This document shows, piece after piece, positions 6,095 through 11,363 of a DNA stretch of 64,000 bases; position 1 is the first letter of the stretch; the number at the start of each line of letters is the position of its first letter. This DNA comes from an uncultured Acidobacteriota bacterium (GTDB lineage: Bacteria; Acidobacteriota; Blastocatellia; Pyrinomonadales; Pyrinomonadaceae), in NCBI GenBank assembly GCA_902826795.1, contig CADEGD010000003.1:74207-138206 (forward strand). The letters are read 5' to 3'. Below the pieces are notes generated by a model. The model made no database searches. It saw only the letters and a program-made list of their open reading frames with translations, and was not told the origin of the DNA. Both the position numbers and the translations under genes were made by a program.

Positions 6095-9403
<3,309 letters not shown>

Positions 9404-9490: not shown

Positions 9491-9506
9491 TATGCGATAA
9501 TCCCTT

Positions 9507-11363
9507 ATGAACGGACGCCCGCCGGAGATTCCGCCGCACAAGCTGATAAAGGCACTTCGCGGCTACAACCTGCTTCCGGCGATCGTCTTTTTGCCGACGC
9601 GGCGGAAGTGTGACGAAGCCGCGACCGAGGTTGCGGGCGACAAGTCGCAGCAGACTGACGGCGAGAAGTTCGAACGGCGGCAGCAGATCTTCGACGATTA
9701 CCTCGCTGCGAACCCCGAGGTAAAGACCCACAAACACGCCAAGATACTGGTGAATGCAGGCATCGCCTCGCACCACGCCGGGCACATTCCTGCCTGGAAA
9801 CTGCTGGTCGAGAAGATGATGTCCGCCGGATTGCTGAATGCGATCTTCGCGACCTCGACAGTCGCGGCGGGAGTCGACTTCCCTGCTCGAACGGTCGTGA
9901 TCACCAACGCCGATGCTCGCGGCAACGACGGCTGGCGATCGCTGACGGCTAACGAACTTCAGCAGATGACCGGACGTGCCGGACGCCGGGGCAAGGACAA
10001 CGTCGGTTTTGCCGTGCTGGTACCGGGGCAGTTTCAGAATCCGAAAAAGATCGCGGAACTGCTGAAGACGCAGCCCGACCCGCTCGAGAGCCGATTCCGT
10101 GCCACATACACGACGCTGCTGAACCTGCTCGACGCGTTCAAGAATTTCGAACAGCTTCGCGAGATCGCCGAACGAAGCTTTGCATTCCGCGGGACCGGAC
10201 GCCAGATCGATCAGCTTCGGAAGAATGTGGAGTTTGCGAGCGAGCGGATCAGGACGAGCATCGAGTCGGCCGGCGTGGAGTTGTCGGTGAATGACGTGCT
10301 CGGGTTCGAGCGACTGGCGGAAGCCAAAGGGCGTGTGATCGAACGGCTGCCGGAATCTCGTGTGGAGTTTCGCGGGCAGTGGCTTCGGGACAACGTCGTG
10401 CCCGGGCAGATCGTTACACAAGGCCGCAGCGGTAAGCGGCTGTTCTTCATCCTCCAGATGAATGGCGACGCGATCTCGGCCATTCGAGATGACGGCCAGG
10501 GTTCGACGTTTCCGCTGTCGCGGATCAACAAGGTCTACGGGAACAAGTATCCGGTCCGCGAGCGTGACATCGAACTGGCGTTCTTCGACGTTTACGAGAA
10601 CAAGAATCCGCCGCTCGAAGAGCCCAGGCCGCCCGAAAAGAGCGACGCGGCTGACCCGGCCGTCGAGCTGCTCGATGCGACGATCGAGAAGTTCATCGCC
10701 GAGCCCGAACGCCGCGAACTTTACCTTCAAGTGCTGTGGGAGAACGCGGTCGATGCGGACAAGGTGGACCGGACGCGGCGTGACATCGAGTATCTGCGGT
10801 CGAAGATCTGGTCGCCGTTCGAGCAGCGGGCGAAGGTGCTGGACCACTTCGGCTACCTCGATTTCCGGAAAGAAGTGGTCCCGAACCAAGGTAAATGGCT
10901 CGCCGACCTCCGAGTCGATCGGCCGCTGCTCGTTGGCGAAGCGTTGAACCGCGGCGTCTTTACCGGGATCGACCACACGGTGATGGCGGGCTTGATGGCC
11001 GCCCTCGCCGCCGATGCTGACCGCAACTACGGCGAGCTTTATCTGACTGACGACGTGCTCGACGCGATCACGGACATCGAGGAAGTGATCTATGACGTAT
11101 CGAAGGTCGAATGGAGATTCGGGATCGAGCCGGTCGAGGAAGTGAACCTCACCGCCGCTGCCGCCGCCGAACGCTGGGCCGGCGGTATGCAATGGCCCGA
11201 GCTAGTAAAGCGTACCGGAGCCGAAGAAGGCGACCTGTTTAGGCTGCTCTCACGCACCGGCGAAGCGCTGATGCAGATCGCTCACCTGCGATCTTCTAAT
11301 CCCGAAGCCGCTAGACTCGCAGGCGAAACTGCCGAGATGCTGCTGCGCGATCCGATCAGATAG
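9507..11363 (+). CDS. Ski2/Mtr4-type helicase C-terminal half, no ATP-binding domain
   Basis: 618 residues that begin at the second RecA domain of an SF2 Ski2-like helicase: motif IV PAIVFLPTRR (24-33), motif V FATSTVAAGVDFP (114-126), motif VI QMTGRAGRRG (153-162). A winged-helix/ratchet-like region follows, then a long helical C-terminal domain. Walker A (GxGKT), DExH and SAT motifs are absent, and only 103 bp of repeat sequence separates it from the upstream amidohydrolase, so the first RecA domain is not encoded nearby. The ATG at 9507 has no obvious Shine-Dalgarno. The body shows no frameshifts, so it looks like a maintained protein. Either it works with an ATPase half encoded elsewhere, or it is a truncation that kept its reading frame. 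Confidence 0.8.
   Translation: MNGRPPEIPPHKLIKALRGYNLLPAIVFLPTRRKCDEAATEVAGDKSQQTDGEKFERRQQIFDDYLAANPEVKTHKHAKILVNAGIASHHAGHIPAWKLLVEKMMSAGLLNAIFATSTVAAGVDFPARTVVITNADARGNDGWRSLTANELQQMTGRAGRRGKDNVGFAVLVPGQFQNPKKIAELLKTQPDPLESRFRATYTTLLNLLDAFKNFEQLREIAERSFAFRGTGRQIDQLRKNVEFASERIRTSIESAGVELSVNDVLGFERLAEAKGRVIERLPESRVEFRGQWLRDNVVPGQIVTQGRSGKRLFFILQMNGDAISAIRDDGQGSTFPLSRINKVYGNKYPVRERDIELAFFDVYENKNPPLEEPRPPEKSDAADPAVELLDATIEKFIAEPERRELYLQVLWENAVDADKVDRTRRDIEYLRSKIWSPFEQRAKVLDHFGYLDFRKEVVPNQGKWLADLRVDRPLLVGEALNRGVFTGIDHTVMAGLMAALAADADRNYGELYLTDDVLDAITDIEEVIYDVSKVEWRFGIEPVEEVNLTAAAAAERWAGGMQWPELVKRTGAEEGDLFRLLSRTGEALMQIAHLRSSNPEAARLAGETAEMLLRDPIR

Follow-up and report, generated by a model that had tools for sequence, protein, structure and literature searches.

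Can a helicase gene that lacks its ATP-binding domain encode part of a working motor? This question is raised by an open reading frame (ORF) in contig CADEGD010000003.1 of an uncultured Acidobacteriota bacterium (family Pyrinomonadaceae), of which a stretch of 64,000 nucleotides (positions 74,207 to 138,206 of the forward strand; hereafter, the window) was analyzed. Helicases of superfamilies 1 and 2 (SF1 and SF2) are generally viewed as one polypeptide whose two RecA domains, joined by a tether, open and close with ATP. The ORF in question, at 9507..11363 (+) of the window, holds only the second of these domains. Our favored reading, to which we assign a probability of about 0.86, is that it encodes one of the two subunits of an ATP-dependent RNA helicase of the Mtr4/Ski2/HelY type.

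The ORF is ATG-initiated and encodes 618 residues with zero internal stops. Pfam identifies Helicase_C at residues 104–162 and a DSHCT domain (PF08148, E 3.6e-24) at residues 456–617 (10872..11357, +), and gives no match to the DEAD domain in the 618 residues. In a phmmer search against the PDB, residues 11–217 align to residues 306–515 of Mtr4, which places the start of the protein at the edge of RecA2. An N-terminal extension is ruled out by an in-frame TAA at 9498..9500 (+), two codons 5′ of the ATG, which closes the frame; since the upstream amidohydrolase-like ORF stops at 9403 and leaves 103 nucleotides before the ATG, a RecA1 domain cannot be encoded there either. The RecA2 domain starts with the conserved sequence PAIVFLPTRRKCD (motif IV region; 9576..9614, +), in which P24, A25, I26, F28, R32, R33, C35, and D36 are invariant, followed by motif V, FATSTVAAGVDFP, at residues 114–126 (9846..9884, +), and the arginine-finger motif VI, QMTGRAGRRG, at residues 153–162 (9963..9992, +), both conserved among relatives; these sequences, and those called DExH and SAT below, we take to be the motifs so named. 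An arch/KOW-like segment, comprising helices and a small β-barrel, covers 10203..10799 (+), as indicated by fold matches and by an AlphaFold2 model of the protein (34 sequences; mean predicted local distance difference test score [pLDDT], 83.5; predicted template modeling score [pTM], 0.55), for which the top PDB fold matches are Mtr4 and Ski2. The preliminary description of this locus, which had read an uninterrupted frame starting at motif IV, with motifs V and VI intact, no ATP-binding domain, and no room for one upstream, is borne out on these points: the window ORF encodes an intact protein, the start of which corresponds to the hinge between RecA1 and RecA2 in helicases of the Mtr4/Ski2/HelY type.

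A strong match to this C-terminal half (C-half) was found in 41 of 60 related genomes, starting at about the same place as in the window, which shows that the start is neither chance nor an assembly slip. The scan gave 44 matches at E ≤ 0.001, from which those in G037, G040, and G045 were excluded as weak matches on frames of approximately 1000 to 1180 residues. The C-half gene is present in a single copy in its own genome. Within the window's genus, the C-half comes in two size classes: many copies are compact (approximately 420–450 residues) and lack the approximately 200-residue arch/KOW segment, which the window copy retains.

The preliminary description had suggested that the first RecA domain might be encoded separately, and a search of the organism's own genome (4.15 Mb in 98 contigs, 99.6% complete) located such a gene. 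Of 10 places found with PF00270, one falls within a 332-residue frame (contig C58) that consists of a Ski2-type RecA1 alone. The encoded protein (N-half), identified with PF00270 and phmmer, has approximately 294 residues counted from the first ATG (C58:15274-16158, −; L035:1282-2166). It comprises a basic N terminus, APTGSGKT, DEAH, SAT, RPVELRAAYLSPGLQLYPLF, and a short arginine-rich tail, so that Walker A, DExH, and SAT are present in the partner and absent from the window ORF. In its best PDB match by phmmer, which is Dob1/Mtr4, residues 65–278 fall on RecA1 and the C-half falls on the RecA2 that follows. The N-half gene, too, is present in one copy. The reciprocal search with PF00271 gave eight matches in seven ORFs, six of which also contain DEAD, the window ORF alone being without it. 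Within this genome, only the C58 protein reads as a Ski2-type RecA1 with nothing else attached.

The two RecA domains are therefore not in one polypeptide, the window ORF holding RecA2 only and its partner lying on C58. Taken together, the pair holds the features of Mtr4/Ski2/HelY-type helicases: the RecA1 motifs, RecA2 motifs IV, V, and VI, the arch/KOW insertion (in the window C-half), and a C-terminal DSHCT domain. Hel308-type NCBIfam models stay below their cutoffs (P0001, 82.9 bits versus 1216 for NF001308 and 70.1 versus 1200 for Hel308; P0002, 81.2 versus 1200 for Hel308), these being full-length cutoffs that are out of reach for either half alone.

One might suspect a decaying helicase remnant, as the ATP-binding half is missing from the window ORF and as the C-half is broken into three frames in one relative (L013 of G023, a low-quality genome). 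Ratios of nonsynonymous to synonymous substitution rates (dN/dS), calculated by the Nei–Gojobori method with several saturated dS values, make this extremely unlikely. Among congeners, dN/dS amounts to 0.030–0.087 for the N-half and 0.037–0.091 for the C-half (nine comparisons each), with an extra C-half pair (G000–G028) at about 0.06. Beyond the genus, three pairs from group f3 gave 0.030–0.122, two fused pairs 0.13–0.19, and two adjacent-gene pairs 0.087–0.35, the highest value coming from the very close pair G126–G129. Hence, both halves are under strong purifying selection. With dN/dS at about 0.04–0.09, frames intact in nearly all congeners, and both the motifs and the partner gene conserved, a pseudogene or an assembly break is rejected. 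The earlier idea of a maintained half helicase also holds against full-length orthologs, which were seen in other genera but not in the window's own.

The motifs themselves are conserved in a complementary manner. In N parts spanning the domain, APTG[SA]GKT, DE[AV]H, and SAT are kept in 105 of 105, and both the motif V and motif VI patterns are present in 102 of 106 C parts. Moreover, genomes generally have both genes or neither. In the 60 relatives, a strong C-half occurs in 41, a strong N-half in 40, and both in 38 (N without C in G001 and G016; C without N in G023, G024, and G028). In a sample of 162 genomes from the class, 113 have both halves, 6 the N-half only, 6 the C-half only, and 37 neither, the weak C matches in G037 and G045 having been set aside as other helicases and counted under neither. 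When only the 101 good-quality genomes (≥90% complete, ≤5% contaminated) are considered, these numbers become 78, 2, 0, and 21.

These data bear on whether the C-half could be a lone RNA-binding or scaffold protein (arch plus DSHCT) without a motor role, next to an N-half acting as an independent ATPase. Such an arrangement would fit the lack of linkage between the halves in the window's genus, where their rates of evolution also differ somewhat, and the loss of the arch segment from some C-halves, which suggests a flexible architecture. We nevertheless consider it unlikely, as the nearly invariant motifs V and VI in the C-halves and Walker A, DEAH, and SAT in the N-halves form two sets that are each useful only with the other, and as the genes come and go together. 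For the same reason, an RNA-binding or regulatory factor without ATPase function, which the preliminary description had left as an option, has become less likely: the C-half retains motif VI, which can function only against ATP bound by RecA1.

Related genomes show the same split, as well as fused and adjacent-gene versions that illustrate its origin. For ARRANGEMENTS, the regions around both halves were retrieved and their ORFs scanned to class each arrangement. Both halves were available from 119 genomes or loci, 97 of which were used as tree rows and 22 omitted (congeners, to thin the genus, and partial ones). These rows comprise 20 fused genes (3 of them deltaproteobacterial), 32 adjacent pairs, 6 pairs on the same contig within a few kb, 27 dispersed pairs, and 12 inverted pairs (Nitrospira). 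Halves near contig ends make three assignments less certain: G137 is probably fused and was recoded so for the state counts, whereas G102 and G076 are doubtful as dispersed. A fused single ORF of 908 residues is found in the cultured Pyrinomonas methylaliphatogenes K22 (L127). Adjacent genes often overlap, by TTGA in G058, G072, G099, and G138 and by ATGA in G134 and G153. In four genomes, G126 (L215), G129 (L218), G147 (L236), and G151 (L239), one in-frame stop divides the open frames of the halves, which may reflect readthrough or recent fission; G151 gave a 949-residue frame in one scan, but direct ORF scanning shows an in-frame TGA, and it was counted as adjacent. In the window's genus, where no fused copy was seen, the halves are unlinked, located either on separate contigs or at distances of tens to hundreds of kb; in the two-contig congener G026, they lie approximately 325 kb apart on opposite strands. 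Three 3.7-Mb genomes in two contigs (G046, G050, and G054) have the N-half on the large contig C1 and the C-half on the small contig C2, and in some species the halves thus apparently reside on different chromosomes.

The split falls at a place where the fused proteins are flexible. In the model of the single-chain Pyrinomonas protein (11 sequences; mean pLDDT, 83.1; pTM, 0.72), the entire Mtr4/Ski2 fold is present, and residues 279–289, between RecA1 and RecA2 at the position of the split, are disordered. A short arginine-rich linker occurs there in the deltaproteobacterial fused proteins L155 and L157 (L159 is without it), and in fused Pyrinomonadaceae proteins the linker is often longer and rich in arginine and glycine. 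Most split N-halves terminate in an arginine-rich tail, some 10–30 residues beyond the RecA1 fold. We read this tail as the old linker, left behind once a stop codon and a new start codon had appeared downstream of it.

Such an architecture also speaks to whether the halves might be rejoined into a single chain after transcription or translation, by a split intein, by trans-splicing, or, where the genes are adjacent, by readthrough or frameshifting. Given the sizes of inteins, a split intein has no room at either terminus, the N-half tail being short and the C-half beginning at the RecA2 edge. Readthrough is conceivable in the four single-stop pairs and only there; it is impossible for inverted pairs or for unlinked ones such as those of the window's genus. 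Overall, rejoining thus appears very unlikely, and two separate subunits remain the preferred reading.

The inverted pairs come from a second phylum. In Nitrospira, including the complete genome of N. moscoviensis, both halves are present, the C-half gene preceding the N-half gene on the same strand. In a sample of 198 Nitrospirota genomes, the C-half was found in 56, the N-half in 54, and both in 54. There is one fused form (G350, 746 residues), and all 53 split pairs are ordered C then N on one strand, 51 of them with 249–507 bp between match edges and two with 7.5 and 25.6 kb. Given this inverted order, a sequencing slip, a frameshift, or readthrough cannot account for the split in this phylum. 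The N-half of N. moscoviensis has an N-terminal extension of approximately 100 residues, and the f3 N-halves are likewise extended. In another sample of 198 genomes, centered on a fused deltaproteobacterial genome, 52 have a C match; the frames measure approximately 690–1050 residues, except in G816 (619) and G714 (347), and no demonstrable split was seen among these 52 genomes, the two short frames running toward a contig end. In an Acidobacteriota sample, 42 of 396 genomes gave matches, 35 of which are from the window's class; the other 7 are frames of 669–850 residues, matched over RecA2 only.

Pyrinomonadaceae, its clade 1, the fused group, f3, f8, and Nitrospira each come out as one group in the tree of the N parts and again in that of the C parts. 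Distances in the two halves correlate at 0.94 overall and at 0.97 in dispersed genomes, values that are uncorrected for species relatedness. Three changes between the fused and split states are needed on the 97-row tree, and likewise on either single-half tree. With two actinobacterial HelY-like rows added, four changes are needed, and the deltaproteobacterial rows then shift beside Pyrinomonadaceae; if only fissions are allowed on that tree, the count is approximately six, by eye. In approximately unbiased (AU) tests, a single clade was rejected for the fused rows as a whole (p 1.45e-68) and for those of Pyrinomonadaceae (p 1.81e-95), in both cases with groups chosen after viewing a quick, long-branched tree. 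The state changes and the AU rejections together indicate, as far as such trees can tell, that the helicase gene was cut or rejoined several times. We infer that the fused form is ancestral.

Several observations weigh against the two-subunit reading. Among 11 congeners, the N–C distances correlate only modestly (Pearson 0.61, again uncorrected for species relatedness), and the C tree does not hold these congeners together. Another protein of the window's genome (L037:1-2043 on contig C88; 681 residues of an 835-residue frame) has Pfam DEAD and no Pfam RecA2, so that pairing by domain content is not perfectly exclusive. The C parts of G144, G065, G066, and G093 each miss the strict motif V or motif VI pattern, and the N. 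moscoviensis N-half (L162:7949-9010) has DESQ and SAS, versus DEAH/DEVH and SAT in its Acidobacteriota relatives. Co-occurrence has exceptions in draft genomes: the N-half stands alone in G001 and G087, which are of good quality, and the C-half in G201 and G316 (Nitrospirota). Finally, the gene neighborhoods of the N-half and of the N. moscoviensis pair offered no functional hint.

With these points taken into account, the working enzyme is most likely assembled from two proteins, with association in trans, ATPase activity, and helicase activity being predictions. The ancestral motor would have been a single chain, divided at the flexible, arginine-rich segment that joined RecA1 to RecA2; RecA1 (Walker A, DEAH, and SAT) is now encoded by a separate gene, and RecA2 together with the arch, ratchet, and DSHCT parts by the window gene. 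The two proteins would most likely meet through the normal RecA1–RecA2 face, the N-half binding ATP and the arginine finger of C-half motif VI completing the site. The predicted outcome is an ATP-dependent motor that would unwind structured or ribosome-bound RNA in the 3′-to-5′ direction. Both substrate and direction are proposed by analogy with the Mtr4/Ski2/HelY family, and the likely role would be in RNA decay or in the unwinding of RNA at or close to ribosomes.

The closest known relatives are the eukaryotic exosome helicases Mtr4/Ski2, which share the domain order RecA1, RecA2, arch/KOW, DSHCT; in both sequence and fold, the halves and the fused ortholog match Mtr4/Dob1 and Ski2 best. The difference is that the matched structure chains hold both RecA domains, whereas here these are encoded by two genes. 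Genes of Nonomuraea (a single 952-residue frame) and Microbacterium match both half profiles, and we take both to be HelY; at least in Nonomuraea, HelY is thus one chain, in contrast to the two genes described here. The Microbacterium gene (L265:2137-5790, a plasmid record) is unannotated, broken over three frames, and adjoins tatA/tatC, a neighborhood that we presume to be typical of helY. Streptomyces HelY is described in one study as a ribosome-associated RNA helicase under WblC control, the loss of which causes a marginal, twofold sensitivity to tetracycline (PMC7157823).

Split genes as such are already known. One report on Nanoarchaeota describes a split "large helicase-related protein" and a split reverse gyrase, the split sites of the former differing between two species, so that it was split more than once (PMC3655853). 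As far as that account goes, the likeness lies in a helicase made from two separate genes, and the differences are that it belongs to another helicase family and to the tiny genomes of host-dependent archaea, whereas the split seen here occurs in multimegabase bacterial genomes of two phyla, at the RecA1/RecA2 hinge. The "split helicase" of Clostridium plasmids refers to an insertion site (PMC4824171). Searches of an open-access library gave no prior description of this Ski2-type split, and a motor of this type that is split repeatedly and dispersed in free-living bacteria is apparently new. For annotation, the case carries a warning, as either half alone resembles a truncated gene.

If the two-subunit reading is true, a natural motor with its RecA domains on separate proteins would test the need for a tether and would provide a ready-made system for measuring RecA1–RecA2 affinity, ATP-driven closure, and RNA-driven assembly. 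More tentatively, and at what we judge to be somewhat below even odds, cutting at the SF2 hinge may be tolerated and repeatedly used in free-living bacteria, with fission, dispersal even to two replicons, order inversion, and probably re-fusion of one helicase; assembly may then be what regulates the two-subunit form, the N-half serving as a detachable ATPase clamp, and the enzyme would be a natural split-helicase switch. The series of fused, adjacent, and dispersed genes within one bacterial family would record a multidomain enzyme becoming a heteromer.
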